DNA from: Timaviella obliquedivisa GSE-PSE-MK23-08B
Lineage (GTDB): Bacteria; Cyanobacteriota; Cyanobacteriia; Elainellales; Elainellaceae
Direction: 5' to 3'
NCBI GenBank assembly: GCA_019358855.1
Contig: JAHHII010000004.1
Location: 124,001 to 188,000, forward strand
DNA length: 64,000 bases
Below are positions 29,459 to 54,769 of this stretch, in pieces. Made by a program: the position numbers and the translations under genes. Below the pieces are notes generated by a model. It searched no databases and was not told where the DNA came from. It was given only the letters and a program-made list of their open reading frames with translations. Numbering within the stretch: the first letter of the stretch is position 1; every line of letters starts with the position of its first letter.

Positions 29459-29992
29459 ATGCTTTACAAGATCTTGGTAGCAGTGGATGAATCGTTCATG
29501 AACCGAGGGGTATTTGAGGAGGCGTTAGATTTATCTCGTAAAACCGGAGCTAGTCTGATGCTACTGCATGTGCTAACTCCTGAAGAGCGCCATCATCCAG
29601 AACTGCCTCGGAGCTATGTTCCCTACTACTACCCGATTGTTACAGATGAGTTATTGCAGCAGTATCAGGCAGAGTGGGAAATTGCTGAAAACCGAGGGCT
29701 AAATCTGCTGCGATCGCTAGCCCAAGAAGCAACAGGGGTAACAGTCGAGTTTACTCAAAACATTGGCAACCCAGGTCGCGTCATTTGTGATGTTGCCAAA
29801 GATTGGGGGGCAACCCTAATTGTTATGGGGCGGAGAGGCAGAACAGGGTTGAGTGAACTGCTCATGGGAAGCGTGAGTAATTATGTGATTCATCATGCCC
29901 CTTGTTCCGTTTTCGTGGTGCAAGGAAAGGTACAAGCTGCGGCAAACGTTACACCTGAGGAAAATACAATCCTTGCGGCATCTGTAAAGTAG
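29459..29992 (+). CDS. Universal stress protein, UspA family (1 of 3)
   Basis: 177 residues. It begins MLYKILVAVDES with the nucleotide-binding Asp, and ends with the ATP-binding loop VMGRRGRTGLSELLMGSVSNYV followed by HHAPCSVFVVQ. ATP-binding Usps are homodimers linked to stress survival. The last ~10 residues (NTILAASVK) come from a degenerate copy of the dispersed repeat. Two further Usp genes follow on the same strand, gaps 124 and 50 bp. Confidence 0.93.
   Translation: MLYKILVAVDESFMNRGVFEEALDLSRKTGASLMLLHVLTPEERHHPELPRSYVPYYYPIVTDELLQQYQAEWEIAENRGLNLLRSLAQEATGVTVEFTQNIGNPGRVICDVAKDWGATLIVMGRRGRTGLSELLMGSVSNYVIHHAPCSVFVVQGKVQAAANVTPEENTILAASVK
29969..29990 (+). repeat. Dispersed short repeat, degenerate copy D
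   Basis: ATCCTTGCGGCATCTGTAAAG matches the core of the repeat family at about 14 of 18 positions and forms the 3' end of the first Usp gene. This is the weakest copy listed. Confidence 0.35.
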
Positions 29993-30116
29993 GGCGCTGT
30001 TTGATTGCACTTAAGCCTGTGCGATCGCAATTCAGTAGGTGGCTGTTGAGTGAGTGTTAGAGCTTCATTGGAACAAATTGTTGATAGCACTTAGAAACAA
30101 CCTATAGGAGGCGCTA

Positions 30117-30542
30117 ATGTTTAACAGAATTTTAGTCACAATGGACAACTCTGATGCAATGAGTCAGTCTACATTTGAGAAAGCATTGGCTTTGGCAAAG
30201 CAAAACCATGCCCGATTGATGCTGCTCCACGTACTGCCCTCTAACTCAGCACAGCATTCTGATATGGATGCGTTGCAATCGCTCCACAAAACTGCAAAAA
30301 ACCAAGGACTTGCTTCTGATGTTGCGCAACTCCATGGAGAGCATGACCATGTTATTTATGACTTGGCAAATCGTTGGGGTGCTGATCTAATCGTATTAGG
30401 TCAGCATGATTCGAAGCAAAATGACTCTGCTCTAAGCGATTGGTTTGCCGAACAAGCCCCCTGCTCGGTGCTGCTAGCTCAGACACCCGATGCGCTTCAC
30501 TTAAAAGCAAGTCAAGTTGAACAATTTGCCATGATGGCTTAA
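30117..30542 (+). CDS. Universal stress protein, UspA family, without the ATP loop (2 of 3)
   Basis: 141 residues, with AGGAGG seven bases upstream of ATG. The N-terminal strand MFNRILVTMDNSD and the AQLHGEHDHVIYDLANRWGADLIVLG segment are Usp-like. The glycine-rich loop seen in both neighbours is replaced by GQHDSKQNDSALSDWFAEQ, so the GxxG-x9-G(S/T) ATP signature is missing. It likely belongs to the non-ATP-binding class. It may form heterodimers with its flanking paralogues; that is inference. Confidence 0.88.
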   Translation: MFNRILVTMDNSDAMSQSTFEKALALAKQNHARLMLLHVLPSNSAQHSDMDALQSLHKTAKNQGLASDVAQLHGEHDHVIYDLANRWGADLIVLGQHDSKQNDSALSDWFAEQAPCSVLLAQTPDALHLKASQVEQFAMMA

Positions 30543-30592
30543 TCCTTTGCTAAGAGCCTCCTGGCAAAGAATCTAGCTCCCTGGAGGAAGCT

Positions 30593-31111
30593 GTGCTACA
30601 AAAAATCGTAGTTGCCTTAGACCGTTCTGAAACCTATCAACACGTTCTAGATGAAGCGTTAGCATTAGCAAAAGCGACACACGCTTCGCTCCTGTTTTTT
30701 CATGTGCTTAATCCAGTCGATCGCGGGTATCCATACCCCCTATATCCTAGTGCTGATGCTTATCCTGCCTTATACGAGGAAACAATTCAACTATACAGCG
30801 AACAGATCCGACGATTTGAGCAGGAGGGCATGGCATTTCTACGATCGCTGGCGCAACAAGCTACCGCTTTGGGTATTTCTGTCGAATGTTCCCAAAGTAC
30901 GGGTGACCCAGGCAGAATGATTTGTCAGACTGCTGAGAATTGGAAAGCAGATGCGATTTTGATGGGACGACGAGGGCGATCGGGATTGCGCGAAATGCTG
31001 CTAGGCAGTGTCAGTAACTATGTGTTGCACCATGCGTCCTGCTCGGTCATGATGATTCAGGGCGTGTTCTCTGATGCTGAGGCATTGCAAGAATATTTAG
31101 ATATTTGTTGA
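30593..31111 (+). CDS. Universal stress protein, UspA family (3 of 3)
   Basis: 172 residues from GTG with GGAGGAAG just upstream. It opens with MLQKIVVALDRSE and carries an intact ATP loop LMGRRGRSGLREMLLGSVSNYV plus HHASCSVMMIQ. It is more like Usp 1 than Usp 2, which suggests tandem duplication with the middle gene of other origin or faster diverged. Its stop region overlaps the end of the convergent glycosyltransferase gene by 15 bp. Confidence 0.93.
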   Translation: MLQKIVVALDRSETYQHVLDEALALAKATHASLLFFHVLNPVDRGYPYPLYPSADAYPALYEETIQLYSEQIRRFEQEGMAFLRSLAQQATALGISVECSQSTGDPGRMICQTAENWKADAILMGRRGRSGLREMLLGSVSNYVLHHASCSVMMIQGVFSDAEALQEYLDIC

Positions 31112-32355: not shown

Positions 32356-34089
32356 TCAACGCTGCCGCCGAAACAAGCGCTGCATCCACTGCCACAGCTT
32401 TTGCCACCAGGAATGCTGCGATCGCCGAGGACGAGACGGGGCGTTGGGCAGGGAGTTTTCCCACCAGTCAGGGGTAGAAGGTTTTGGTTCACCAATAGTG
32501 GGAACTGCACGAGGAACTGCTGCAATAATTTGATGAAGTTCGTAAATGGCTACTTTGCATTGCTTAACCATATACTCTAGTTGGAGTTCTTTATAGATTT
32601 GTTGCGCCTGTTGGTAGTTTTTTAAGGCTTGCCAGTGGTTGTCAAGTTTGGCTAATGCTTGAGCATTGTTCAAAAGGGAATTAGCTTCACCGTGGCGATC
32701 GCCAATCTGACAGAAGATTTTCAATGATTGTTGATAGAGTTCGATGGCTTGTGGATATTGTCTAAGGGAGTGATAAGCAGTGCCCAAGTTGACTAAAGAC
32801 TCTGCTTCACTCCTGCGATCGCCAACTTGACGTTTGATTTCCAGCGATTGTTGATGAAACTCAATGGCTTGTGGGTACTGCCCAATTGACTTGTAAGCAT
32901 TGCCTAGATTCATCAGAGAAATTGCTTCACCTTTAAGGTCGCCAATCTGACGTTTAATTTCCAGCGATTGTTGATGAAACTCAATAGCTTGCGGATATTG
33001 TTTCAATTTATCGTAAACATTTCCTAGATTGTTCAAAGAACCAGCTTCACCGTCGCGATTATTGATCTCTCGAAAGATTTCCAACGATTTTCGATTAAAT
33101 TCAATGGCTTGCGGATACTGTCCGAGTGACTTGTAAGCAATGCCTATATTATTCAGAGAACCTGCCTCGCTGTAGCGATCGCTCAATTCCCTCGCAATCT
33201 GTAGCGATTGTTCATGAAGTGCGATCGCCTCATGATACTGCGATTGTGAATCATAAAAAAGTCCTAATCTCGTTAAGGTCTGCATCTGCTCTGCCGCTAA
33301 CCCAAACTGCTTCTCAAGCTCTAATGCTTTCTGAAAACTAGCGATCGCCAACTCCTTCTCCCGCTCCAAATCTGTCGCCTCTCCCCGCTCAATCCGCTGC
33401 ATATACGCCTGCCCCAAGCGGTCATACAACGTCGCCAAACTCACTGCATCTTTCCCCTGCTTCGCCTCCGTTTGGGCAATCAACTCCTGCACATCTGCCA
33501 GCGCCAACCCAAAATCATCGGACTGATCGGGTAATGCTCTTTCAGGTTCGGGCATTCGTCCCACAGGCTGCATCCCCACCGCCTCATCTCCCACAAACCG
33601 ATAAACTCCCCGCCGCCAACTCCAAAAATCCGGCGACTTGCGGCTCATCGTGCGCAAAATTCGGCGCGTCACCCAGAGCACGATCGGGTAAGGAAACTCG
33701 CGCAATCCTTCCCTTGTCCATTGCAAATAGCCATAAAACTTGTCTAGCTGCGTAGCATCCTCATCATCTGCCCGCAAATTGAGCCACAGCAACTCCTCTG
33801 CCCCCGTCACCGTTAGCACAATGTGCCGCTGTTGCTCTTTTACCCAGGGGTTAGCAGTAATCCAGTTATCAATGGCGGCTCTGAGGCTAGGTTCTTTTTG
33901 GTTAAGCTGCAACCGCACCGTGTAAATATTAGGGAGCAATTCTTGTTCATAGCGTTCAATAATTTGGGTTCGCAGCGCGCGACTATCGCAGACCGCAATT
34001 AATAACGCTAACGTTCCTTTGCTGGATTCAATTACCGTTACCAGTTCTTCATAGGCATCTTCATTTTGCTGATTAGCAGATTCGTTCAT
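32356..34089 (-). CDS. P-loop-less NTPase-like domain + near-identical TPR array
   Basis: 577 residues. Residues ~10-170 resemble an AAA/STAND-type NTPase fold but lack Walker A (LALLIAVCDSRALRTQIIERYEQEL; HIVLTVTGAEELLWLNL; FPYPIVLWVTRRIL; SPDFWSWRRGVYRF). Residues ~215-500 are TPRs with a strict 40-residue period. Two of them share an identical 18-residue block (364-381 and 404-421), and their DNA is nearly identical too. The C-terminus (561-577) is a Trp/Arg-rich amphipathic stretch. It overlaps the upstream ATPase gene by four bases (ATGA). This layout recalls inactive-STAND/TPR components of predicted bacterial conflict systems. Confidence 0.75.
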   Translation of the reverse strand: MNESANQQNEDAYEELVTVIESSKGTLALLIAVCDSRALRTQIIERYEQELLPNIYTVRLQLNQKEPSLRAAIDNWITANPWVKEQQRHIVLTVTGAEELLWLNLRADDEDATQLDKFYGYLQWTREGLREFPYPIVLWVTRRILRTMSRKSPDFWSWRRGVYRFVGDEAVGMQPVGRMPEPERALPDQSDDFGLALADVQELIAQTEAKQGKDAVSLATLYDRLGQAYMQRIERGEATDLEREKELAIASFQKALELEKQFGLAAEQMQTLTRLGLFYDSQSQYHEAIALHEQSLQIARELSDRYSEAGSLNNIGIAYKSLGQYPQAIEFNRKSLEIFREINNRDGEAGSLNNLGNVYDKLKQYPQAIEFHQQSLEIKRQIGDLKGEAISLMNLGNAYKSIGQYPQAIEFHQQSLEIKRQVGDRRSEAESLVNLGTAYHSLRQYPQAIELYQQSLKIFCQIGDRHGEANSLLNNAQALAKLDNHWQALKNYQQAQQIYKELQLEYMVKQCKVAIYELHQIIAAVPRAVPTIGEPKPSTPDWWENSLPNAPSRPRRSQHSWWQKLWQWMQRLFRRQR

Positions 34090-35465
34090 GGCTCGGTAAG
34101 TTCAGGAAGCACGTCTTCCTGACGCAATAGATCAATGACAATAGGGTTTAAGTCATACCAAAGTTTGGCATTGCGATACTCTAAAATATGCAACCCATGC
34201 AACAAATCTAAAAACCGCTGATCCTCCGTGTCTTGAGGTTTCCCCTGGTCATAAATTCCCTTCAGAAGCTCGTAGTCTTTTTGCCCCAACGGTTCGTCAT
34301 ATTCAATCTGAAAGTCTGTTAACACCTGCTCTAAAATTTCCGCATCAATGTTCACAGGTACGATCGCCTCTGCATTCCGCAAAGCTCGCTGGAGCCGCAC
34401 AGAATACTTGTCACAACAACGACTGGCTAACCGAATCATTTCCCGTAGCACACCGCCGCTTTTAAGAACTAGCTTGCGTTTGGTCTGTGGATCAATTAGG
34501 TCTGGCGATAAACGGCGATCGAGAATCTTCTCAAAACTTTCAACGAGTTTAGGTTGTACAGGAGTTGGCTGAAGCTGATGGCTGTCTCCTTTGGCAAAAA
34601 ACTTTGCCACCCGCATTGTATGAATTTTGTCAGTACTGGCATCAAGCAGCTTTCGCAGTTTGACATCCCGCAATACAAAGATAGGAATTGTGTAGATAAT
34701 CCGAAATTGTGGTTGGGAGAGAGGCTGAATATTGTTACCGTACACTTTCTCGGCAAGATCTGGATTGAGTTTATCTAAATCATCAATAATGACGAGGATA
34801 GGGCGATCGCACCCGGCTTGAATCACTGCTGCGATCTCATTAATCCGACCGATTAAATCAGAAATTTTGCGATCGAATTCAGTTTTAATTTCCTCTCGAA
34901 TGACTGCATTTGCCTTTATATTGCCTTTGAGCGAGATCCAAAACTTGGCGATCAAGTCTGCCAAGTTCAATCCAGCACCTGCTTCATAACCTGCATCTAG
35001 GCTTGCTTCTAGCTGACTCGTCTCCACCTTTGTGTAACGACCGAACCAACGGTAAAAAGCTTTTTTCGTTGAAGGTTTAATTGCAATATTTTTTTGTTCT
35101 GCAACTTCCATCATTTGCGTGGCAATGGTGAACAAAATATTCACATGGTTGATATCTGCCATCTCAACCAGATCGGCAACAGAGAATAAGACCACAAAGT
35201 ATCGCGAATCTAGGCGATAACGCAGTTCCGCCAACAGCGTTGATTTACCGCAGCCTGTATGTCCTGTGAAAAGATGTTTTTCGGTTTCTAAAGAACTCGT
35301 AATCGCTTGTTCTAACTCATCTAACAGATCTGGATCATGCTCCACCCAAAAGCGATTCAAGTCTTCGGCCGTTTGTAAGGGTTGAAGGCGCAAATTATAA
35401 TTTGCAAACCTGAAGGTTTCTAGACGGGTTTGCAGTTCTTCAGGGGTAGTTCCAGGATTAGGCAT
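34086..35465 (-). CDS. P-loop ATPase partner of the TPR protein
   Basis: 459 residues. Walker A is GHTGCGKST (68-76); Walker B is ILVIIDDLDKL (223-233). The layout after Walker B (IIYTIPIFVLRD, RKLVLKSGGVLREMIRLASRC) fits AAA/KAP-like or STAND-like ATPases with a helical lid. The C-terminal ~90 residues look like a winged-helix segment (YELLKGIYDQGKPQDTEDQRFLDLLHGLHILEY). No transmembrane helix is seen. The TPR gene overlaps its stop by four bases, so the two proteins are almost certainly made together, presumably as a sensor/regulator pair. Confidence 0.75.
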   Translation of the reverse strand: MPNPGTTPEELQTRLETFRFANYNLRLQPLQTAEDLNRFWVEHDPDLLDELEQAITSSLETEKHLFTGHTGCGKSTLLAELRYRLDSRYFVVLFSVADLVEMADINHVNILFTIATQMMEVAEQKNIAIKPSTKKAFYRWFGRYTKVETSQLEASLDAGYEAGAGLNLADLIAKFWISLKGNIKANAVIREEIKTEFDRKISDLIGRINEIAAVIQAGCDRPILVIIDDLDKLNPDLAEKVYGNNIQPLSQPQFRIIYTIPIFVLRDVKLRKLLDASTDKIHTMRVAKFFAKGDSHQLQPTPVQPKLVESFEKILDRRLSPDLIDPQTKRKLVLKSGGVLREMIRLASRCCDKYSVRLQRALRNAEAIVPVNIDAEILEQVLTDFQIEYDEPLGQKDYELLKGIYDQGKPQDTEDQRFLDLLHGLHILEYRNAKLWYDLNPIVIDLLRQEDVLPELTEP

Positions 35466-40555: not shown

Positions 40556-41124
40556 AAGTCCTGTGTCCTTTCCTGTGGTTCACGTCAGCCTTAGCTGATT
40601 ATAGTGAGGTGGCGATCGCACTTCAAGCCACTTCTGTCGCTCTTTTTATAGTCAACTGAATAGTATCCCCTGATCCAGAGGTTTCCATAATTTTCTCTCA
40701 CTGAACCCTACTCTGGATGAAATAAGAAAGGTTGTGTCGTACTAGACATATTTTTAAAGAATTAGTAGACAACCGCATGTTTATTGCTTATGATTGGTAG
40801 CTGTTGCCGAAATAAGGCGATCGAATTACCCAGCGTTAAACATTGGTAAAGCGCTTGAGAATAGTTCGCGCTACAGGGATACTGAGCAGTTTACTGTTCA
40901 AGTCCTGGCACTTTCAGGCTGAAGCGAACGAGATCTTCTTAGAACTCTTCAAGCCTGCTTGAGCTATTGCAAAGGTTTGACGCAACCCTCTTGCCGAAAG
41001 GTAGAGAGTTTTGCGCTGAGCCTCTGCTTTAACCCAACCGGAGATTAACAGACTGGCGTGTTCTGATACAGAGCGCAAGCGCCAGTTTGCTCCAATGCAC
41101 CGTGTAAAACAGGGGAGACGTACT
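40556..41124. promoter_or_regulatory. Divergent ndhN / rplC promoter region
   Basis: 569 bp without a gene. It contains a HIP1 octamer near 40613 and an ACTGGCG/CGCCAGT inverted repeat at 41052-41086 with a 21-nt loop, placed in the probable leader of rplC. The ribosome-binding site AGGGGAG at 41111-41117 fixes the rplC start. A leader hairpin could serve autogenous control of the ribosomal operon, but that is speculation. Confidence 0.4.
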
Positions 41125-41760
41125 GTGTCCGTTGGTATTCTAGGCACAAAACTTGGCATGACCCAGATATTCAATGAGGCAGGACTCGCAGTTCCTGTCA
41201 CCGTTGTTCAAGCGGGGCCATGCACAGTTACACAAATTAAAACCGCTCAGACCGATGGCTACACAGCTATCCAACTCGGCTTCGGTGAGACTAAGGTCAA
41301 ATCGTTGACTAAGCCTGAGTTGGGTCACTTGGTAAAGTCGAGTGCTGCACCGTTGCGGCATTTACAGGAGTACCGTCTCGGCGATGTTACCCCGTATGAA
41401 CTTGGTCAAGAAGTGAAAGCAGATGCGTTTGAAGTCGGTCAGCTCGTTGATGTAGTCGGTACCAGTATCGGTAAAGGCTTCGCGGGCTATCAAAAGCGTC
41501 ATAACTTCAGGCGAGGGCCCATGTCTCACGGTTCTAAGAACCATAGAGAACCTGGATCTACAGGGGCAGGTACCACGCCAGGTCGAGTTTATCCTGGGAA
41601 GCGGATGGCGGGGCAGATGGGCAACGTCCGAGTTACGGTTCGGAAGTTGACTGTAATTAGAGTAGATGCAGAACGTAACTTGATTTTGATTAAGGGTGCA
41701 GTTCCCGGCAAACCCGGCGCATTGCTAAACATTCTGCCTGCAACAATTGTTGGAAAGTAG
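41125..41760 (+). CDS. rplC: 50S ribosomal protein L3
   Basis: 211 residues from GTG 41125 ([16 protein letters not shown]), with AGGGGAG seven bases upstream; the ten extra upstream codons in the open frame are discarded. The conserved loop [34 protein letters not shown], close to the peptidyl-transferase centre, is intact. L3 is an early 23S rRNA-binding protein. It is the first gene of the cluster here; rpsJ, which precedes it in E. coli, is absent, as usual in cyanobacteria. Confidence 0.98.
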
Positions 41761-41781
41761 CGGGAGCGGAGAGAGACTGCA

Positions 41782-42420
41782 ATGGTTGATTGCACAGTAA
41801 AAAATTGGGATGGCGAAGACAGCGGTACAGCATCGCTGGAATTAAAAGTTGCCAAAGAAGAAACTGCTTCCCACGTTGTTCATCGAGCGTTAGTTCGTCA
41901 GATGAACAATTCTCGCCAGGGAACGGTTTCGACTAAAACCCGTGCTGAGGTTAGAGGTGGTGGACGTAAGCCTTGGCGGCAGAAGGGAACAGGGCGCGCT
42001 CGTGCGGGTTCTAGTCGTTCTCCTCTGTGGAGGGGGGGTGGAGTGATCTTTGGCCCTAAGCCCAGAGATTTCTCGGTCAAAATGAACCGCAAAGAGCGAC
42101 AGTTGGCACTGCGAACTGCATTCTACGGTCGGGTAGAAGACTTAGTAGTGGTTGCAGATTTTGCGGAGCAGTTATCTCGTCCTAAGACCAAAGACTTGCT
42201 GTCGGCAATGTCTCGCTGGGGCGTTGAGCCAGAATCTAAGGTGCTACTAATTGTTGCTGAACGCAATGAGAACGTGTATCTGTCAAGCCGCAACATTGCT
42301 AAGCTGCGGATGATTTCTGCCTCAAACCTGAATGTCTTTGACATTTTGGCAGCCGATAAAATCGTGGCGACTGAAGAAGCGATCGCAAAAATTCAGGAGG
42401 TATACGGTGGCCAAGTTTGA
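41782..42420 (+). CDS. rplD: 50S ribosomal protein L4
   Basis: 212 residues; [34 protein letters not shown] is the extended loop reaching the nascent-peptide exit tunnel. In E. coli L4 also represses the S10 operon; the same in this organism is not shown. Its last 14 bases overlap the start of rplW. Confidence 0.98.
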
Positions 42421-42709
42421 TCCTCGTAATCTTCCAGATTTAGTACGCCGTCCTTTGGTAACAGAGAAAGCGACCTTGCTGTTAGAGCAAAATAAGTACA
42501 CCTTCGAAGTTGCCCCTAAAGCAACTAAGCCGCAAATTAAGGCAGCGATCGAAGAGTTATTTGAAGTTAAAGTCGTCGATGTAAATACCCAGACTCCTCC
42601 TAGAAAGGATCGCCGCGTGGGTAAGTTTTTAGGACACCGCGCTCAATACAAAAGGGCCGTTGTCACCCTGGCATCAGGGGATTCAATCACCCTGTTCCCT
42701 GAAGTCTAA
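42407..42709 (+). CDS. rplW: 50S ribosomal protein L23
   Basis: 100 residues from GTG 42407 with CAGGAGG six bases upstream, which overrides the longer open frame. The sequence [25 protein letters not shown] and the C-terminal [18 protein letters not shown] are typical. L23 lines the tunnel exit and docks trigger factor and SRP. It overlaps rplD by 14 bases, pointing to coupled translation. Confidence 0.97.
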
Positions 42710-42731
42710 AATTCTTTGAGAGCTTGAGATT

Positions 42732-43595
42732 ATGGGTATTCGTTCTTTCAAACCTTATACACCTGGCACCCGACAGCGTGTTGTCTCAGATTTTTCTGAG
42801 ATTACGAAGTCAACACCTGAGAAGTCGCTAACTTACTCGGTTCACAGCCCCAAGGGGCGGAACAACCGAGGTGTCATCACCTGCCGTCATCGGGGTGGTG
42901 GGCACAAACAGCTATACCGGATGGTGGATTTCCGTCGGAACAAGCACAACATTCCTGCTAAAGTAGCCGCTATTGAGTATGACCCTAACCGGAATGCTCG
43001 TTTGGCGTTGCTGTTCTACCGCGATGGTGAGAAGCGCTATATTATTCATCCCGCTAATTTGGCAGTAGGGGCGATCGTTATTTCAGGTTCCGATTCGCCT
43101 TTTGAAGTCGGGAATGCCTTGCCATTAGGCAATATGCCCTTAGGTACAACCGTTCATAACGTTGAGCTAGTTGCTGGCAAAGGCGGACAAATCGTTCGTG
43201 CAGCAGGTACATCTGCTCAGGTAGTTGCGAAAGAGGGTGATTACGTCACGCTGCGTTTGCCTTCTACTGAAGTTCGTCTTGTTCGCAAAGAATGCTACGC
43301 CACCATTGGGCAAGTCGGTAACGGCGACGTTCGCAACACTAGCTTTGGTAAAGCTGGACGCAAGCGCTGGAAAGGTCGTAGACCTCAAGTTCGCGGTAGC
43401 GTCATGAACCCTGTGGATCACCCCCATGGTGGTGGTGAAGGACGGGCACCGATTGGTCGTCCTGGACCTGTTACGCCTTGGGGTAAGCCAACGTTGGGCT
43501 ACAAGACTCGGAAGAAGAAGAAGCTGAGCAGTCGGTTAATTGTTCGTCGTCGTCGTCGTACCTCCAAGCGAGGCAGAGGCGGTCGGGAGTCTTAA
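42732..43595 (+). CDS. rplB: 50S ribosomal protein L2
   Basis: 287 residues. The C-terminal [18 protein letters not shown] loop with the invariant His near the peptidyl-transferase centre is present, as is the basic tail [18 protein letters not shown]2 is needed for subunit association. Gap to rplW is 22 bp. Confidence 0.99.
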
Positions 43596-43633
43596 GGTTC
43601 TACACGTTTTTCTGTATGTGAGTTGAAATTATT

Positions 43634-43912
43634 ATGTCTCGCTCTCTTAAAAAAGGTCCGTTTGTTGCAGACCATTTGCTCAGCAAAGTAGAAGCGCTCA
43701 ATAACAAGGGCGAAAAGCAGTTGATTAAAACCTGGTCAAGAGCTTCTACAATTTTGCCTCAAATGATTGGACATACCATTGCCGTTCACAACGGTCGCCA
43801 GCATGTGCCCGTCTATGTGACTGAGCAAATGGTAGGTCACAAGCTAGGGGAATTTGCCCCAACCCGAACCTTCCGGGGTCACGCCAAAAGCGATAAGAAG
43901 GCACGTCGATAG
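43634..43912 (+). CDS. rpsS: 30S ribosomal protein S19
   Basis: 92 residues, [16 protein letters not shown] at the start and [21 protein letters not shown] at the end, full length. S19 binds 16S rRNA in the head of the small subunit with S13 near the A site. 38 bp after rplB. Confidence 0.98.
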
Positions 43913-43932
43913 GAAGCCGCTAGGAGAAAACG

Positions 43933-44289
43933 ATGGCTCTTGAAAATGGAGAAGTTAAGGCGGTTGCTCGCTTCATTCGGATGTCACCCCACAAGGTACG
44001 TCGAGTCCTGGATCAAATTCGGGGGCGTTCTTATCGGGAAGCGCTGATCATTCTGGAATTCATGCCCTATCGAGCGTGTGAACCCATTTTGAAGGTGCTC
44101 CGGTCAGCAGTAGCGAACGCCGAGCATAACGAAGGATATACCCCAGCAGATTTGGTGGTTGCTCAAGCATTTGCGGATCAAGGTCCTGTGCTAAAGCGTT
44201 TCCGCCCTCGTGCACAAGGTCGGGCATATCAAATCCGTAAGCCGACTTGTCACATCACGATTACCGTTGCCCCTGGCGCGGAAGCATAA
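43933..44289 (+). CDS. rplV: 50S ribosomal protein L22
   Basis: 118 residues. [30 protein letters not shown] and the tunnel-facing hairpin [28 protein letters not shown] are intact. The AGGAG ribosome-binding site lies eight bases upstream. Contributes to the exit-tunnel constriction with L4. Confidence 0.98.
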
Positions 44290-44322
44290 TCGCATCACAT
44301 TATTGATCTCAGAGGACGCACC

Positions 44323-45078
44323 GTGGGACAGAAGATTCATCCAGTCGGCTTCAGGCTCGGTATTACCCAAGAGCATCGCTCTCGTTGGTTTGCCGATTCC
44401 GACCGCTATCCAAAACTTCTTCAAGAAGATTACACCATCCGGAACTTCATTGAGAAGAATCCTTATAAGCTGAAAAGCTTAGACAGCCCTGGTATTTCTC
44501 AGGTGCGAATTGAGCGCAAAGCCGATCAAATTGATCTCGAAGTCCACACGGCGCGTCCTGGCGTTGTGGTTGGACGGGGCGGTCAGGGCATCGAAGAATT
44601 AAGAGTTGGTTTACAAAAGGCGTTGGGTAACACCGATCGCCAAATCCGCATCAACGTCATTGAAGTGGCGCGAGTCGATGCTGATTCTGGCTTGATTGCT
44701 GAGTACGTGGGGCAGCAACTCGAGCGTCGGGTTTCCTTCCGCCGAGTGGTTCGCCAAGCAATTCAGCGGGCACAGCGAGCAGGCATTGAAGGGATCAAGA
44801 TTCAGGTTAGCGGACGACTTAATGGAGCAGAGATTGCTCGGACTGAGTACACGCGTGAAGGTAAGGTGCCGCTCCATACTCTGCGGGCTGATATTGATTA
44901 CGCTTACCGCACAGCCCAAACTATTTACGGCATTTTGGGCATTAAAGTTTGGGTGTTTAAAGGTGAGATTATTCCTGGTCAGGAAATCGAGGCTCAACCT
45001 GCTAACGCTCAACCTCGTCGTCGGCAACAACAGCAGCGCCGTCGTCAGCAGTACGAAGACCGCTCCAACGAGGGATAG
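44323..45078 (+). CDS. rpsC: 30S ribosomal protein S3
   Basis: 251 residues from [28 protein letters not shown] opens it; the KH domain is seen at [15 protein letters not shown]. The C-terminal tail is extended and rich in Gln and Arg ([17 protein letters not shown]), longer than in E. coli but common in cyanobacteria. Helps form the mRNA entry tunnel and helicase. Confidence 0.98.
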
Positions 45079-45083
45079 AGATT

Positions 45084-45506
45084 ATGTTAAGTCCTAAAAG
45101 AACTAAGTTTCGGAAACAGCATCGCGGGCGGATGCGCGGGATGGCAACTGCTGGCAACAAAGTCGACTTTGGCGATTTTGCATTGCAGGCATTAGAGCCA
45201 TCCTGGATCACTGCTCGCCAGATTGAAGCTAGTCGGCGTGCTATGACTCGCTATATTCGCCGGGGCGGTCAGATCTGGATTCGGATTTTTCCAGATAAAT
45301 CGGTGACCATGCGTCCTGCTGAAACTCGGATGGGTTCAGGTAAAGGGAACCCTGAGTTTTGGGTAGCCGTTGTGAAGCCGGGTCGAGTGATGTTTGAAAT
45401 TGGCGGTGTGCCTGAAGAAACTGCCCGTGAGGCGATGCGCCTGGCATCCTTTAAGTTGCCAATCAAGACTAAGTTTATTGTTCGCCCAGCGGAAGGAGAA
45501 TTTTAA
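45084..45506 (+). CDS. rplP: 50S ribosomal protein L16
   Basis: 140 residues, [19 protein letters not shown] with the family-typical Arg-rich start; [29 protein letters not shown] is the conserved core near the A site. Five bases after rpsC, two before rpmC: tight operon spacing. Confidence 0.98.
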
Positions 45507-45508
45507 TC

Positions 45509-45730
45509 ATGCCTTTACCCAAGGTTGATGAAATTAAAGATTTGAGCGATCAAGAGCTGAGCGATCAAATTACGACGGTTAAGAAGGATCTGTTTCAACT
45601 GCGCTTTCAGAAAGCTACCCGTCAGATGGATAAGCCCCATCAGTTCAAGCACAAGCGCCATCGTCTGGCTCAACTCATGACCATTGAACGACAGCGCCAA
45701 TTAGCGGCTTCCGCCAGTTTAGAGGAGTAG
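45509..45730 (+). CDS. rpmC: 50S ribosomal protein L29
   Basis: 73 residues, two long helices ([43 protein letters not shown]). L29 sits beside L23 at the tunnel exit. Gap to rplP is two bases. Confidence 0.95.
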
Positions 45731-45735
45731 GCTTT

Positions 45736-45987
45736 ATGGCAGTCAAAGAGAGAGTCGGCTTAGTAGTAAGCGACAAAATGCAGAAAACGGTGGTGGTGGC
45801 GATCGAAAACCGTGCACCACACCCGAAGTACAAGAAGATCATGGTTCGTACCAAGCGATATAAAGTCCATGATGAAGAAAATAAGTGTCAGATAGGCGAT
45901 CGCGTTCGCATTCAAGAGACTCGTCCCCTTAGCCGCACCAAGCGCTGGGCTGTGATTGAGATTCTGGGTAATGCCCCCGACGTTTAA
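45736..45987 (+). CDS. rpsQ: 30S ribosomal protein S17
   Basis: 83 residues with an OB-fold; [40 protein letters not shown] is the classic S17 core, and [14 protein letters not shown] near the end confirms it. A primary 16S rRNA binder. Five bases after rpmC. Confidence 0.97.
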
Positions 45988-46023
45988 GAGCCACATATTT
46001 CCGATAACTAGGGGAACAAGGCG

Positions 46024-46389
46024 ATGATTCAACAGGAAAGTTATTTAAACGTAGCGGATAACAGCGGCGCTCGTAAGCTGATGTGTATCCGTGTATTAGG
46101 CGGCAACCGTCGCTATGCCGGAGTTGGTGATGTGATCATTGCCGTTGTGAAAGATGCAATTCCCAACATGGCCGTGAAGAAATCTGATGTAGTCCGGGCA
46201 GTTGTAGTCCGCACGCGCAAAGGATTACGTCGCGATAGCGGTATGAGCATTCGATTTGATGACAATGCTGCTGTCATTATTAATGCAGACGGAAACCCTA
46301 AGGGAACGCGGGTGTTTGGTCCAGTTGCACGGGAACTGCGCGACAAAAGCTTTACTAAAATCGTGTCTCTGGCTCCGGAGGTGCTGTGA
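46024..46389 (+). CDS. rplN: 50S ribosomal protein L14
   Basis: 121 residues; [27 protein letters not shown] and [31 protein letters not shown] are full-length L14. L14 forms an intersubunit bridge and is the docking site of the silencing factor RsfS. The last base of its TGA is the first base of the rplX ATG. Confidence 0.98.
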
Positions 46390-46739
46390 TGCCAAAACAA
46401 ACTAAGAAAACTCCTCAACGCACCACTATTCATGTCAAAAAAGGCGATACCGTTCAGGTCATTGCTGGCAGGGATAAAGGCACTATTGGCGAAGTCTTAA
46501 AGACTTATCCTGCCAACAGTAAGGTGTTAGTGAAAGGAGTCAACATCAAGACTAAGCACATTAAACCTCAGCAGGAAGGTGAATCCGGTCAGATCACGAC
46601 GACCGAGTTTCCCATTCATAGCTCTAATGTCATGGTGTATTCCACCCAACAGAAGATTGCTAGCCGTATTTGTTACACCGTCGATGCGGATGGTCGTAAA
46701 GTACGAATGCTGAAGAAAACGGGCGAGATTATTGACTAA
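46389..46739 (+). CDS. rplX: 50S ribosomal protein L24
   Basis: 116 residues from ATG 46389; GGAGGTG five bases upstream favours this over the GTG at 46386. The KOW motif [23 protein letters not shown] is clear. L24 initiates large-subunit assembly. TGATG overlap with rplN indicates coupling. Confidence 0.96.
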
Positions 46740-46783
46740 TCATTCTTCCCTGACCAAGTCCAGGGACATTTAAGGATAAACAG

Positions 46784-47329
46784 ATGAACGATACACTGAA
46801 GGCTCTTTACCTGGAAAAAGTTGTTCCTAAGCTTATGGAACAATTCCAATACCAAAACATTCACCAGGTGCCCAAGGTTATTAAAGTAACCATGAATAGG
46901 GGTTTGGGAGAAGCCGCTCAAAATGCTAAGGCAATGGAAGCTTCGATTAATGAGATTAGTGTGATTACAGGACAAAAACCTGTTGTGACCCGTGCGAAGA
47001 AGGCGATCGCCGGATTCAAAATTCGTCAGGGAATGCCTGTAGGTATTATGGTGACGCTGCGTGCAGACCGGATGTACTCCTTTCTTAATCGCCTCATTAA
47101 CCTGTCTCTCCCTCGGATTCGAGATTTTCGGGGCGTTAGTCCGAAAAGCTTTGATGGGCGTGGGAACTACACGCTGGGCTTGCGTGAACAGTTGATTTTC
47201 CCCGAAGTCGAATACGACTCCGTAGACCAAGTCCGAGGCATGGACATCTCCATCATCACAACTGCCCAAACCGATGAAGAGGGTCGAGCCTTGCTAAAAG
47301 AACTAGGAATGCCCTTCCGGGATAACTGA
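46784..47329 (+). CDS. rplE: 50S ribosomal protein L5
   Basis: 181 residues; [27 protein letters not shown] and [29 protein letters not shown] are diagnostic. L5 binds 5S rRNA in the central protuberance. One HIP1 site lies within it near 47001. Confidence 0.98.
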
Positions 47330-47354
47330 GGCATATCTTCACAAAGAGGAAATT

Positions 47355-47756
47355 ATGGCGGCTAATGACACAATTGCAGATATGCTGACGCGCATCCGGA
47401 ATGCAGGTTTGGCGCGGCATCAGACGACAGACATACCATCCACTAAAATGACCCGCAGTATTGCGGCAGTGTTACAAAACGAAGGCTTTATCGAAGGCTT
47501 CTCTGAAACAGAGGACGGCGTTAAGCGGACGTTAGTGGTGGCACTAAAATATAAAGGTAAGGCGCGTCGCCCTTTAATCACAACCCTTAAGCGGGTGAGC
47601 AAGCCTGGACTTCGGGTTTATTCCAACCGTAAAGAACTCCCTCGAGTTTTAGGCGGCATTGGGATTGCCATTATTTCGACCTCCAGCGGCATCATGACCG
47701 ACCGCGATGCTCGGCGGCAAGGGTTAGGGGGCGAAGTCCTCTGTTATGTCTGGTAG
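47355..47756 (+). CDS. rpsH: 30S ribosomal protein S8
   Basis: 133 residues; [19 protein letters not shown] at the start and [26 protein letters not shown] at the end. rpsN (S14), which precedes S8 in many bacteria, is missing here, as is usual for cyanobacterial spc clusters. Confidence 0.98.
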
Positions 47757-47794
47757 GGCATAGAAAAGAATTTATTTGTCCAGGAGAAACGATC

Positions 47795-48334
47795 ATGTCT
47801 CGTATTGGTAAGCGCCCTATCCCTGTTCCCCCCAAAGTGACCGTCACGATTAGCGGTCAGCACGTTGCTGTGAAAGGACCCAAAGGTGAGCTATCGCGCA
47901 CCCTGCCTCCTGAAGTGGAGGTTGTCCAGGAAGGAGATACTGTTCTGGTGAATCGCCGGAATGAGTCCCGACCTGCTCGGCAACGGCATGGACTTTGCCG
48001 TACTCTCATTGCCAATATGGTAGAAGGGGTTTCTCAAGGCTTTCAGAAGCGCCTAGAAATTCAAGGTGTGGGCTATCGGGCTCAGGTTCAGGGACGGAAT
48101 TTGGTGCTAAACGTGGGTTACAGCAACCCGGTTCAAATCGAGCCGCCTGACGGAATTCAGGTAGCGGTTGAGAACAACACCAATGTCATTGTCAGCGGCA
48201 TTGATAAAGAAATTGTCGGCAACACTACTGCTCGAATTCGGGCAGTTCGTCCGCCTGAGCCTTACAAAGGTAAAGGAATTCGCTATGCCGGAGAAGTGGT
48301 CAGACGTAAAGCCGGTAAGGCAGGGAAGAAATAG
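47795..48334 (+). CDS. rplF: 50S ribosomal protein L6
   Basis: 179 residues, [12 protein letters not shown] to the conserved [28 protein letters not shown]6 sits at the factor-binding region beneath the L7/L12 stalk. CAGGAGAAA precedes the start. Confidence 0.98.
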
Positions 48335-48336
48335 CT

Positions 48337-48699
48337 ATGAAAATGACGCGCAAGGAATCAACTCGTCGTCGTCACGCTCGGGTTCGCAAAGACGTGACAG
48401 GGACGACAGAACGTCCTCGGCTAGCCGTTTATCGTTCCAATCAGCACATCTATGCTCAAGTAATCGACGATACAAACCATCATACGATGGCTTCAGCTTC
48501 GACTTTAGAAGCAGATCTCAAGAAAGTGTTAGATTCGGCGAACAACTGCGACGCTTCGGCACAAGTCGGTAAATTGTTGGCAGAACGGGCGATCGCCCAA
48601 GGCATTAAGCGGGTAGTGTTCGATCGGGGGGGAAACCTCTACCACGGTCGAGTCAAAGCTTTGGCAGATGCAGCACGTGAAGGCGGACTAGACTTCTAG
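48337..48699 (+). CDS. rplR: 50S ribosomal protein L18
   Basis: 120 residues; [20 protein letters not shown] and [26 protein letters not shown] are the family ends. Binds 5S rRNA with L5. Two bases after rplF. Confidence 0.98.
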
Positions 48700-48710
48700 G
48701 AGAAATAAAT

Positions 48711-49247
48711 ATGGCTTCTAATACTAAAGGTGGCGGTAAGAAAGGCGGTCGCGCCAAAGAGAAAGAGTCTGAGTGGCAAGAGCGTGTTGTTCAGATCAAG
48801 CGAGTCACGAAGGTTGTCAAGGGTGGTAAAAAACTCAGCTTCCGGGCGGTCGTAATTGTTGGTAACGAACGCGGTCAAGTTGGCGTTGGAGTCGGTAAAG
48901 CCAGCGACGTAATTGGCGCGGTCAAGAAAGGCGTTGCTGACGGTAAGAAGCATCTTGTCGAAGTGCCTTTAACTAAGTCAAACTCAATTCCTCATCCGGT
49001 TAACGGCGATGGCGGTGGGGCAAAAGTGATGATGCGCCCTGCCGCACCTGGTACTGGCGTTATTGCTGGGGGTGCGGTTCGGATGGTTCTGGAACTTGCT
49101 GGCATCCGCAACATTTTGGCGAAGCAGTTAGGTTCAGGTAATCCACTCAACAATGCAAGAGCCGCAGCGAATGCTTTAGGTTCCTTGCGAACTTTCTCAG
49201 AAGTAGCTGAAGAGCGAGGAATTCCAGTTGAGAACCTCTATGCTTAG
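48711..49247 (+). CDS. rpsE: 30S ribosomal protein S5
   Basis: 178 residues; the double-stranded-RNA-binding-like N-terminal domain ([25 protein letters not shown]) and the C-terminal [29 protein letters not shown] are intact. Affects decoding fidelity. AGGAG precedes the ATG. Confidence 0.98.
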
Positions 49248-49305
49248 ACCTGATTAGCCTTAGAGTCACTTGGCAGAACTTACAAGCTTTTTATTGGATA
49301 CAACC

Positions 49306-49755
49306 ATGAGATTAGAAGACGCTTTACCCCAAAAGGGTTCTCAAAAACGTAAGACCCGCAAGGGTCGGGGCATTGCTGCTGGACAAGGTGCAAGCTGTGG
49401 CTTTGGAATGAGGGGTCAAAAGTCTCGGTCGGGTAGCGGCACTCGCCCTGGCTTTGAGGGAGGACAAATGCCTCTGTACCGCCGTATTCCCAAGCTGAAG
49501 CATTTTCCTTTAATCAATCGGAAGCAATTTACGATTATCAACGTTAAGGATTTAGCAGGGCTAGATGCGAATAGCGAAGTGACTCTTTCTTCTCTAATGG
49601 AAGTCGGAATCATCACGTCTGATGATGGACCTCTGAAGATTTTGGGAACGGGTGAGATTACAGTAGCTTTGAAAGTGAAGGCAGTAGCATTTACTAAATC
49701 TGCTCGCGCTAAAATCGAAGCAGCAGGTGGCAGTTGTGATGCACCTGATCAATAG
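49306..49755 (+). CDS. rplO: 50S ribosomal protein L15
   Basis: 149 residues from ATG 49306 ([22 protein letters not shown]), the usual cyanobacterial start; the 12 upstream codons of the open frame are not family-like. [30 protein letters not shown] is diagnostic. No good ribosome-binding site is visible. rpmD (L30), often before L15, is absent, as expected. Confidence 0.96.
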
Positions 49756-49857
49756 CGCTGGCGATCGAATTTGTGAAGTCGAAAGTTCCGCGCTATAGAA
49801 TGTATCAAGTACTGAATCTATCCGTCCCACTACCACTACGCATAGAGGGAAACCTGC

Positions 49858-51171
49858 ATGGTTGTCAATCGAGATAAAGCGCCATCTGCACAAGAAACAT
49901 TCGTGCAGATGGCACAAGCAGCCGGACTCCGAGGTCGGCTGCTTGTTACTGTTGGACTATTGATCTTAGTTCGCCTTGGCATTTATCTGCCTATTCCTGG
50001 CATTGATCGAGTTGCATTTCAGTCTGCGCTTCAGGGCAGTGGATTGGGCAGTCTCGTCAGTTTTCTAGACGTGTTAGCAGGGGGCGGTATTTCAGCACTA
50101 GGAATTTTTGCGTTAGGCATTTTGCCTTACATTAATGCTTCTATCATTATTCAACTCATGACCGCTGCAGTTCCACAGCTAGAGGATTTGCAAAAGAACG
50201 AGGGAGAAGCAGGAAGACGAAAAATTTCTCAAATTACTCGTTTTGTTGCTTTGGGTTGGGCAATTCTCAACAGCATCATGATTACAACTTTGCTGGTTAA
50301 CCTTAAAGCTCTTAGTCCTGAATTCACATCGATCGCAGAAACGGTCATTGCTCTCACGGCTGGCTCTATGTTTGTCATGTGGATTAGTGAGGTGATTACA
50401 GAGCGGGGCATCGGGAATGGCGCATCACTGCTGATTTTTGTCAGCATTGTCTCTACCTTGCCAAAGTCTTTAGGTCAAACCTTAGAACTGGCTCAGAGTG
50501 GTGATAGCAGCATTGTGGGTCGAGTTATTATTTTGCTCGTTGTCTTCTTGGTCATGATTGTTAGTATTGTCTTCGTTCAAGAAGGCACTCGACGCATTCC
50601 AATCATTTCTGCGCGTCGCCAAGTGGGTAAGCGTACCTATCAAGAAAAGAGCAGCTATCTTCCTCTACGCCTCAATCAGGGTGGAGTTATGCCGATTATT
50701 TTTGCTAGTGCAATGTTGTCATTACCCTTTGCTCTAGGTCAAGCATTTTCTAACAACCAAGCCATTGCTACAGTTATTAGTTATATTCAACCGGGTACGT
50801 GGCTCTACCCATTGCTTCAAATGGTGTTAATTGTATTTTTCAGCTATTTCTATTCTTCGCTCATTGTTAATCCTGTAGACATGTCGCAAAATTTGAAAAA
50901 AATGGGTGCTAGTATTCCTGGCATTCGTCCAGGAAAGGCAACAAGTGAATATATTGGGCGGGTGTTAAATCGTCTAACCTTTTTGGGAGCAGGCTTCTTG
51001 GGACTAGTAGCGATTTTGCCGACTGCGGTTGAAGGTGCTACTCAGGTCAGAACGTTCCAAGGATTAGGTGCAACTTCCATTTTGATTCTAGTGGGCGTGG
51101 CGATCGACACAGCCAAGCAAATTCAAACCTACGTGATTTCTCAGCGCTATGAGGGGATGGTGAAGCAGTGA
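49858..51171 (+). CDS. secY: Protein translocase subunit SecY
   Basis: 437 residues with ten hydrophobic helices. Family signatures: GIYLPIPGID, LDVLAGGGISALGIFALGILPYINASIIIQLM (plug region), ISEVITERGIGNGASLLIF and RQVGKRTYQEKSSYLPLRLNQGGVMPIIFA. It forms the Sec channel in the plasma and thylakoid membranes with SecE/SecG. Overlaps adk by four bases. Confidence 0.99.
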   Translation: MVVNRDKAPSAQETFVQMAQAAGLRGRLLVTVGLLILVRLGIYLPIPGIDRVAFQSALQGSGLGSLVSFLDVLAGGGISALGIFALGILPYINASIIIQLMTAAVPQLEDLQKNEGEAGRRKISQITRFVALGWAILNSIMITTLLVNLKALSPEFTSIAETVIALTAGSMFVMWISEVITERGIGNGASLLIFVSIVSTLPKSLGQTLELAQSGDSSIVGRVIILLVVFLVMIVSIVFVQEGTRRIPIISARRQVGKRTYQEKSSYLPLRLNQGGVMPIIFASAMLSLPFALGQAFSNNQAIATVISYIQPGTWLYPLLQMVLIVFFSYFYSSLIVNPVDMSQNLKKMGASIPGIRPGKATSEYIGRVLNRLTFLGAGFLGLVAILPTAVEGATQVRTFQGLGATSILILVGVAIDTAKQIQTYVISQRYEGMVKQ

Positions 51172-51719
51172 CGCGGCTAATTTTTTTGGGCCCTCCAGGC
51201 GCAGGGAAAGGAACCCAGGCACAAGAGTTAGCAAAAACACATGCGATTCCTCACATTTCAACAGGGGATATTCTACGGATTTCTGTGTCTGAAAGGACAG
51301 AGTTAGGTCTGAAGGCAGGGGCTTACATGGATGCTGGGGAGTTAGTTCCTGATTCGTTGATTATGGAAATGGTGCGCGATCGTCTCATCCAGGCTGATAC
51401 CATTTCTGGGTGGCTCCTAGACGGATTTCCTAGAACCGTTGCCCAGGCTACCTTCTTCGACCAACTCCTTCAGGAGATTAATCAGTCTTGCGACTTAGTG
51501 ATTAACTTTGACGTGCCTGACGAGATGCTAGTGGAACGACTCTTAGTACGGGGACGAAAAGATGATAGTGAAGACGTGATCCGCAACCGTTTGGAGGTCT
51601 ATCGACGGCAAACTGCACCCTTGATAGACTTCTACCAAGAGCAACACCTGTTAATCACCATCGACGGTTCTCGATCAATTGAAGAGGTTGCAGCACAATT
51701 GGCCACTGCCATTCAGTAA
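51168..51719 (+). CDS. adk: Adenylate kinase
   Basis: 183 residues, the short form without the zinc/LID insertion. The P-loop GPPGAGKGTQAQEL, substrate site HISTGDILR and LLDGFPRTVAQA are present. Balances ATP, ADP and AMP. The GTG start lies inside the secY stop (GTGA overlap), so translation is coupled. Confidence 0.98.
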   Translation: MTRLIFLGPPGAGKGTQAQELAKTHAIPHISTGDILRISVSERTELGLKAGAYMDAGELVPDSLIMEMVRDRLIQADTISGWLLDGFPRTVAQATFFDQLLQEINQSCDLVINFDVPDEMLVERLLVRGRKDDSEDVIRNRLEVYRRQTAPLIDFYQEQHLLITIDGSRSIEEVAAQLATAIQ

Positions 51720-51921
51720 TTTTTGGATAGGCAAAGGGACTGACTCGTACAAATATCTTGCTAAGGCAAGTCTTTCGTGGCATCGCCCCTGTCTAAACCG
51801 CCACACTTTATAGGAAAGTTTGCTAGGCTAGGTTGTCAAAACTTTTTATAAGAAAACTTTTATAAAACTTGTAATCTTAATTTTTTAGATTGTTCATCAA
51901 CTTACAGTAGGGAAGGTTCTC

Positions 51922-52149
51922 TTGTCTAAACAGGATCTCATTGAAATGGAAGGAACAGTGACAGACTCACTGCCTAATGCCATGTTTCGAGTTGACCTAG
52001 ACAATGGGTTTAATGTCTTGGCCCATATTTCTGGAAAAATTCGCCGGAACTACATCAAAATTTTACCGGGCGATCGTGTCAAGGTAGAACTAACTCCCTA
52101 CGATCTAACAAAAGGTAGAATTACCTACCGACTTCGTAACAAGAAGTAG
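51922..52149 (+). CDS. infA: Translation initiation factor IF-1
   Basis: 75 residues with the OB-fold sequence [51 protein letters not shown]. The start is TTG at 51922, supported by GGAAGG five bases upstream; no in-frame ATG or GTG fits the conserved N-terminus. The 202-bp spacer before it carries a small CTTGC-TAAG-GCAAG hairpin and an AT-rich duplication (AACTTTTATAA-like), so an internal promoter is possible. Confidence 0.97.
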
Positions 52150-52252
52150 GTGAAGTTCTAAGAAATGCAGCCCTTTAAAGTTAAGTCATTTGACAAGTGC
52201 TGTAGATATAGATATTATGTTGTGTTTGTAGTCTTTGTGGTAACAAGGGGAC

Positions 52253-52366
52253 ATGAAAGTCCGAGCATCTGTACGTAAAATTTGCGAAAAATGTCGCGTC
52301 ATCCGTCGTCGGGGTCGTGTAATGGTGATTTGCTCAAATCCTAAGCATAAACAACGTCAGGGTTAG
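52253..52366 (+). CDS. rpmJ: 50S ribosomal protein L36
   Basis: 37 residues, [20 protein letters not shown] at the start and [11 protein letters not shown] at the end. The Cys/Cys/Cys/His zinc-ribbon ligands (C11, C14, C27, H32) are intact, so this is the zinc-binding form. AAGGGG lies just upstream of ATG 52253. Confidence 0.97.
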
Positions 52367-52483
52367 AAGCTGTCTGCATCTGTTAGCAGAACTCAGAACG
52401 TGCCCAGGCAACTGTTTTAGAGTTGGATTCTAGCTATATTTTTAAGTCTGTCGCTAAAAGCAAAAATCAGAGAGGTTTGAAGC

Positions 52484-52867
52484 GTGGCACGAATTGCCGG
52501 AGTAGACCTTCCACGCGATAAGCGTATTGAGATTGGTCTGACATACATTTATGGAATTGGCTTAACTAGAGCCAAGCAGGTAATCGCCAAAACGGGGGTT
52601 AATCCTGATACCCGTGTTAAAGATTTAAGCGATGCTGATGTTTCTCTTCTACGGGAAACAGTTGAAAGTGATTATCAAATTGAGGGTGATCTCAGACGCT
52701 GGGAATCAATGAACATTAAGCGATTGATGGACATTGGCACCTACCGTGGTCGTCGTCATCGATTGGGGTTGCCAGTTCGGGGTCAGCGAACTCGGACTAA
52801 TGCCCGCACTCGCCGGGGCGGTCGTCGGACGGTCGCAGGGAAGAAGAAAGCTCCTGGTAAGAAGTAA
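52484..52867 (+). CDS. rpsM: 30S ribosomal protein S13
   Basis: 127 residues from [29 protein letters not shown] and the C-terminal [22 protein letters not shown] tail that reaches the P site are typical. Pairs with S19 in the head. Confidence 0.98.
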
Positions 52868-52898
52868 GTCATAGAGAATTTCAAGTAAAGGCACGAAT

Positions 52899-53294
52899 AT
52901 GGCGCGACAACCAACAAAAAGGACTGGAGCTAAAAAATCTAAGCGCAACGTACCCAGCGGTGTAGCTCACATCCAGTCCACGTTTAACAACACGATTGTG
53001 ACAATCACTGACCCCAACGGTGAGGCAATCTCCTGGGCTTCATCTGGTTCTAGTGGCTTCAAGGGCGCTAAAAAGGGTACTCCTTTTGCTGCCCAAACAG
53101 CAGCAGAAAGAGCCGCTCAAGGCGCAACTTCACAAGGAATGCGTCAGGTTGAGGTTTTAGTCAGTGGTCCTGGCTCAGGTCGGGAAACGGCGATTCGGGC
53201 ACTTCAGGGTGCAGGTTTGGAAATCACCCTTATTCGGGATGTAACACCCATTCCTCACAATGGCTGTCGTCCTCCTAAGCGTCGTCGAGTGTAG
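52899..53294 (+). CDS. rpsK: 30S ribosomal protein S11
   Basis: 131 residues; [30 protein letters not shown] and [16 protein letters not shown] are diagnostic. Located on the platform by the E site. Confidence 0.98.
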
Positions 53295-53406
53295 GCAGGA
53301 GTTGTTGCTTGATTATAGGTCACTCTTGATTCAAGCAATATTTAAGTGAGATGGGTTAGGGAAGTAGGTTGCTTTCCAGGCGGTTAAGGAAAAGGGAGGA
53401 TCGGCT

Positions 53407-54762: not shown

Positions 54763-54769
54763 TTGTGCT

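Follow-up and report, generated by a model that had tools for sequence, protein, structure and literature searches.

Inactive STAND-type modules are part of several described conflict systems. In the nSTAND2 two-gene counter-invader system, an active STAND protein is encoded together with a STAND protein whose NTP motifs are eroded, and heteromeric assembly of the two has been proposed (Kaur et al. 2021, PMC8195603, Fig. 6C). The inactive subunit carries variable fused domains, most often GT4 or HEPN, and a conserved arginine finger is found in both proteins (PMC8195603). Inactive STAND-type domains, named iSTAND and iSTAND2, also occur in the MoxR-vWA ternary conflict systems of cyanobacteria (PMC7159879, PMC8195603; PF19995), and the BrxB/BrxF iSTAND of BREX is a small P-loop-less STAND-like protein for which the role of a regulatory sensor was proposed (PMC12839542). 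A description of the ATPase-partner pair analysed below was not found in the papers searched; a mention in supplements is possible.

The window, i.e. the whole 64,000-nucleotide stretch of Timaviella obliquedivisa DNA under analysis, contains a gene for a P-loop ATPase followed by a gene for a TPR-containing partner (Table 1). An earlier note on this DNA had described an ATGA overlap joining the two genes and an active-looking ATPase with the motifs GHTGCGKST and IIDDLD. The overlap is present on the minus strand, as are both motifs, which are conserved among relatives, and by this layout the ATPase and its partner are translationally coupled. Inspection of the ORFs revealed no MoxR or vWA gene adjoining the pair. 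The locus has no BREX genes, and no effector gene lies beside the pair. Elsewhere in the window, three tandem ORFs at 29459-31111 (141-177 aa) resemble universal stress proteins by sequence, while ORF sizes and order suggest an S10-spc-alpha ribosomal protein gene cluster at 41095-56593, which places the pair ~6 kb from putative core housekeeping genes.

Table 1. Features of the ATPase-partner locus (positions in the window)
Feature	Position	Strand	Residues	Basis and remarks
ATPase gene	34086..35465	(-)	459 aa	ORF; P-loop core, helical lid, C-terminal winged-helix-like region
Walker A, GHTGCGKST	35238..35264	(-)	68-76	sequence
Walker B, IIDDLD	34773..34790	(-)	226-231	sequence
SGGxxRE motif, invariant	34440..34460	(-)	336-342	alignment of relatives
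Winged-helix-like C-terminal region of ATPase	34119..34343	(-)	about 375-449	AF2 model
ATGA stop/start overlap of ATPase and partner genes	34086..34089	(-)		sequence
Partner (TPR protein) gene	32356..34089	(-)	577 aa	ORF; pseudo-NTPase domain, TPR array, amphipathic tail
P-loop-less ORC/STAND-like N-terminal domain	33574..34077	(-)	5-172	AF2 and Foldseek
Invariant arginine R126	33712..33714	(-)	126	near end of helix preceding strand 4
DFWSW motif	33616..33630	(-)	154-158	D154 and W158 essentially invariant
TPR array	32584..33438	(-)	218-502	Pfam TPR matches
Amphipathic Trp/Arg-rich C-terminal tail SWWQKLWQWMQRLFRRQR	32359..32412	(-)	560-577	hydrophobic moment

The AlphaFold2 model of the ATPase (pLDDT 92.4) consists of a P-loop core, a lid and a winged-helix-like end, the latter built of three helices, a beta hairpin (residues 427-439) and a further helix. 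The nearest structures identified with Foldseek are Cdc6/ORC1, Apaf-1, TnsC, an archaeal STAND-type ATPase and the plant resistosomes; a single-sequence search found no solved-structure relatives by sequence. In an alignment of non-redundant ATPases, GxxxxGK[ST] is present in 80/80, D228 and D231 are kept in 99%, and R318, G337, G338 and R341 are invariant (100% of 80). The position of the SGGxxRE motif resembles that of sensor 2 in ORC/STAND ATPases, and a corresponding role is inferred. As modelled, the protein appears to combine the traits of the STAND/ORC clade, namely a P-loop core, a helical lid with GGxxR, and a winged helix.

The ATPase also passes the Pfam threshold for KAP_NTPase (PF07693; 23.4 bits, cut-off 20), and 35 of 38 ATPase relatives match this family at E 0.01, with weak matches to AAA_16, NACHT, ATPase_2, DAP3 and nSTAND3. 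It therefore resembles KAP/STAND NTPases (PF07693, AAA_16, NACHT, DAP3) in its score above the KAP cut-off and its STAND/ORC core, but differs from them in having no sensor on the same chain and a separate pseudo-NTPase subunit. KAP NTPases typically, though not in all members, have transmembrane segments within the P-loop domain; neither the sequence nor the model of the ATPase shows an apparent transmembrane or hydrophobic insert.

The N-terminal domain of the partner was modelled with AlphaFold2 for residues 1-205 from an alignment of 34 related sequences (mean pLDDT 86.5). Five strands were predicted (residues 28-34, 56-61, 90-95, 135-140 and 159-165) with helices between them, the first strand being followed by helix 37-51. 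The beta1-alpha1 turn, at the usual P-loop position, comprises two residues, and there is therefore no space for a P-loop in this domain; a Walker A motif was found in 0/168 distinct relatives. In a Foldseek search of the PDB, the 12 best matches were ORC/Cdc6 subunits (human, fly, yeast and archaeal) and TnsC, at E 1e-4 to 1e-3, and nearly all of the best 50 were AAA+ or other P-loop ATPases. Since the query-normalised TM-scores against ORC/TnsC are 0.39-0.46, this likeness is a distant one. The earlier note had compared the first ~160 residues to an NTPase fold devoid of Walker A, to be checked by predicting the structure of residues 1-170; the outcome was an ORC/STAND-like fold with no P-loop rather than an unrelated one.

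At the level of sequence profiles, the domain stands apart from known families. No convincing Pfam match was obtained with the 34 members scanned. The candidate assignments that were tried failed: as a paralogue of the ATPase that could be recognised by sequence the domain had an hhalign probability of 0.2%, as BrxB 0.3% (a weak test, with only 3 BrxB rows), and as a known iSTAND it was unsupported, PF19995 not being among the matches listed (25 of 27 families for the 34 partner members, E up to 1). This absence of a profile match to the ATPase, BrxB or any Pfam NTPase, together with TM-scores below 0.5, would suit an unrelated Rossmann-like alpha/beta module for dimerisation or docking that does not derive from an NTPase. 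We consider such an origin improbable, because the structural matches are nearly all to ORC/Cdc6, TnsC and other AAA+ or P-loop ATPases, the order of strands and helices fits an NTPase, and the invariant arginine would otherwise be unexplained. This residue, R126, is an arginine in 80/80 non-redundant partners despite the missing P-loop, and is a candidate trans-acting arginine finger. D154 and W158 are each present in 79/80 partners, the remaining row being a gap.

Confinement of the pair to one genome would have spoken against the reading of the earlier note. The pair proved, however, to be conserved across Cyanobacteriota. The Timaviella genome itself contains four ATPase-partner pairs (in the window and on contigs C23, C2 and C3), and the ATPase was detected at E 1e-20 in 28/98 related genomes, followed by the partner in almost every case. 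Of 386 genomes sampled from the phylum, 89 had the domain; 84 of these 89 also had the ATPase, which was detected in no other genome of the sample. When 84,980 species' genomes were scanned with a single short motif, 335 relatives emerged, and the 80 of 335 that are listed are all cyanobacterial; non-cyanobacterial phyla were covered by this short-motif scan, and the full profiles were run on cyanobacteria.

Among the pooled loci, which are biased in that some were found via the ATPase and others via the domain, so that the two directions were counted separately, the ATPase lies directly upstream of 158/168 distinct partner domains and a partner domain lies downstream of 185/193 distinct ATPases. 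The gap is at most 20 nt in 134 of the 158 adjacent pairs. ATPase and partner distances across 80 non-redundant divergent pairs are strongly correlated (r = 0.947; maximum after shuffling, 0.27), the correlation exceeds that obtained by shuffling within subfamilies (r 0.855), and the subfamily clusters of the two proteins match one to one. These sequence comparisons show that the ATPase and its partner have been passed on together, as one unit, across very deep divergence.

Exceptions to the pairing were also recorded. Five ATPases lack a detected partner: L233 and L243, described below, L258, whose partner falls just below the threshold, the fragment L030, and L069. At L223:2869-6284, two tandem ATPases precede a 186-aa partner domain that lacks repeats and may be a decayed or truncated copy, and L186:5254-5760 encodes a stand-alone 168-aa pseudo-NTPase domain with no adjoining ATPase. 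A fifth domain copy in the Timaviella genome (L211:4546-6885; contig C4, about 455-457 kb) is part of a 779-aa protein, and here too an ATPase of the family is missing next to it. A homologue of this protein in a distant genome (L199) has a similar, PSQLLPKILPRL-like C-terminal motif, and the two therefore look like a conserved orphan branch of the domain.

The partner encoded in the window continues into a TPR array, in which homogenised 40-aa (120-bp) units span about residues 271-470 (tandem repeats with a period of 120). The repeats at residues 311-431 share 60-72% mutual identity, compared to 38-47% identity with the full repeats of the closest relative; within that relative, the TPR repeats are near-identical. 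Homogenisation of the array in the window partner, which the earlier note had proposed, is thus real and far beyond chance, though moderate in extent. The accompanying statement that homogenised TPRs are a published feature of conflict systems found no counterpart in a word search of the main text of the papers cited.

The C-terminal tail of the partner has a hydrophobic moment of 0.64 (shuffle mean, 0.30; 1.9% of shuffles are as high), and in several relatives whose tails are related to it, a transmembrane-like helix takes this position. A universal membrane tail on partners was rejected, as a transmembrane-like C-terminus occurs in only 9/175 complete partners and is a minority feature. Within the window locus, the tail is the only candidate output. 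The view of the earlier note that no effector is encoded beside the pair was thus borne out for the window, where one of its suggested substitutes, the tail, is still a candidate, but relatives of the pair are fused to effectors or share operons with them.

Such effectors occur in minority variants of the pair, TPRs being dominant among 67 partner C-termini scanned. Partners of the TPR-CHAT type are found in Microcoleus-type cyanobacteria (L082, L084; CHAT match at E 1e-41). When read by eye, the fused CHAT domain at L082:5965-9615 has its catalytic His changed to Gln, and that at L084:5965-9378 (L084/L189) its catalytic Cys changed to Ser. With one catalytic position altered in each of these two domains, an active CHAT effector is doubtful, and their sequences suggest pseudo-proteases or a non-proteolytic role. 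Partners of about 1,000-2,000 aa carrying nSTAND1 and WD40 (L183, L184, L185, L187, L213, L239 and others; nSTAND1 match at E 1e-33) were in some cases assigned by eye from sequence. They are also encoded on conjugative Acaryochloris plasmids (L237, L238), and the genes near the conjugative plasmid copies include NACHT, HicAB, integrases, NB-ARC and TIR.

A three-gene operon encoding an ATPase, an ATPase-TIR protein and a double-domain partner was found in L235 (Calothrix sp. NIES-4101 plasmid4) and L250 (genome G116), where the second ATPase matches TIR_2 at E 1e-33 and 1e-31. Two ATPases together with two partner domains are as predicted by one domain per ATPase. Behind the TIR lies a conserved small domain of ~70 aa (LSARQFNMLIFALNPPPGEIP...; L250:6475-6822, L235:8986-9336), which has no Pfam match and is reminiscent of effector-associated domains.

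L233 (Nostoc sp. C057 plasmid p057_J) encodes a SAV_2336/vWA-type protein whose C-terminal part is the ATPase, preceded by a MoxR gene and a VMAP-M1/VMAP-C gene, and in L243 (G247) the ATPase follows iSTAND (PF19995, E 1e-20), MoxR and vWA genes. These are the only relatives with MoxR/vWA genes beside the ATPase. In these loci the ATPase occupies the effector position of the published MoxR-vWA-VMAP and MoxR-vWA-iSTAND systems, and the family is therefore in use within known conflict systems. The survey for variable effectors proposed in the earlier note consequently met with success, in the form of CHAT, nSTAND1-WD40, TIR and the MoxR-vWA use of the ATPase.

In its organisation, the present pair resembles nSTAND2 as published: a two-gene unit with ORC/STAND-like modules in both proteins, one of which lacks NTP motifs and bears variable fusions. 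The fusions themselves differ, in that partners carry TPR, CHAT or nSTAND1-WD40 and TIR is found on an ATPase, while neither GT4 nor HEPN was seen in the long partners or among 25 of 127 families listed for the 67 C-termini. The counterparts of the nSTAND2 arginine fingers would be the invariant R126 in the partner and R318/R341 in the ATPase, their finger role being putative. The partner is like iSTAND in being an inactive STAND-type domain, and the ATPase also stands beside a true iSTAND-MoxR-vWA set (L243); unlike iSTAND, the partner domain has no PF19995 match among those listed, and MoxR and vWA genes are absent from the usual loci. With BrxB/BrxF it shares the P-loop-less STAND-like character, but neither profile similarity nor BREX genes. 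The logic of NTPase, TPR/WD40 sensor and effector is that of nSTAND1-WD40 and Avs/NLR-type sensors, and some partners contain an entire nSTAND1-WD40 unit. In contrast to these sensors, the array and the ATPase are on two proteins, and the dead domain is on the one that bears the sensor.

In the gene neighbourhood of the usual pair, a linked third effector gene was sought and rejected, as no recurrent neighbour of this kind was found; 284 of 317 neighbour clusters are singletons. Those neighbours that do recur, named by eye and in mixed orientations, are Uma2-like, kinase, ABC-transporter and NB-ARC-type genes. Another conceivable reading of the pair is a DNA-associated module, i.e. a TnsC- or ORC-like loader or regulator with partner TPRs that recruit DNA-processing proteins. 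DNA-bound ORC and TnsC are indeed among the Foldseek neighbours and the ATPase has its winged-helix-like region, but no transposase, helicase or nuclease is recurrently linked beyond the ubiquitous Uma2-like gene in mixed orientation, and the partners bear immune-type domains instead, which makes a DNA-associated function very improbable.

Other observations count against a role in conflict. No recurrent defence neighbour is present at the usual loci, housekeeping-type genes surround the window copy, PADLOC returned weak generic ATPase and TPR matches with no clear defence model, and a phage origin of the pair was dismissed because neither phage records nor viral contigs yielded a match. The changed catalytic residue in each CHAT domain, the TM-scores below 0.5 and the absent profile homology between domain and ATPase likewise weigh against the switch favoured below. 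In Nostoc species, the pair is kept as a stable, near-constant copy with 7 detected TPRs, which would sooner be expected of a core regulator than of a gene in an arms race. The bare loci, the unmatched defence models, this Nostoc copy and the orphan form with its conserved C-terminus (L211 and, in a distant genome, L199) would all be expected of a regulatory or scaffolding switch outside conflict, a two-subunit, MalT-like STAND-type transducer serving growth, stress or filament physiology, whose TPRs bind endogenous partners. Such a switch is less easily reconciled with the TIR, CHAT and nSTAND1-WD40 variants and the use in MoxR-vWA-VMAP/iSTAND systems, with plasmid copies inside immune-gene clusters, or with the patchy distribution and array turnover, and we regard it as rather unlikely.

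The effector-bearing relatives (TIR, CHAT, nSTAND1-WD40, MoxR-vWA) therefore make a predicted role in conflict or cell-death signalling likely. We favour, with moderate confidence, an ORC/STAND-type switch that consists of two proteins, depends on ATP and most likely acts in a conflict (immune or programmed-cell-death) network. The candidate conflict or signalling module of the earlier note accordingly gains support from the ORC/STAND-like fold, the conservation of the pair and the effector-bearing relatives, its role being a prediction.

In the proposed mechanism of this switch, the ATPase and its partner would form a hetero-oligomer, for which ORC, with its active and inactive subunits, and nSTAND2 may serve as precedents by analogy. 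The partner's R126 would be donated to the ATPase site or would hold that site off; acting in trans is one possible function of this residue, holding a structural interface another. The TPR or WD40 array would recognise a ligand, e.g. an invader or damage protein, and ligand binding would trigger ATP-dependent assembly and switch on the output. For relatives, the predicted output is a TIR NADase, CHAT or nSTAND1-WD40. The window copy may use its tail, either as a membrane-active element or as an anchor, or may recruit an effector in trans. A more specific picture, which we put forward tentatively as possible but short of probable, is an undescribed cyanobacterial immune-type machine in which a sensor- or effector-bearing pseudo-NTPase completes the site of a separate ATPase via an invariant arginine. 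Such a machine would parallel the apoptosome or resistosome in an ORC-like form with two subunits, and would have several paralogues per genome and exchangeable TPR, WD40, CHAT and TIR parts.

If the proposed switch is correct, it would define a common two-gene family of cyanobacteria, present in about a fifth of the sampled genomes with up to several copies each, and would link a partner domain that has no Pfam entry to TIR, CHAT and MoxR-vWA conflict systems. It would also offer a model of STAND-type ATPase trans-activation by a catalytically dead partner, with K74 and R126 as named residues, and could help to place many of the TPR and WD40 proteins that lack annotation in multicellular cyanobacteria.
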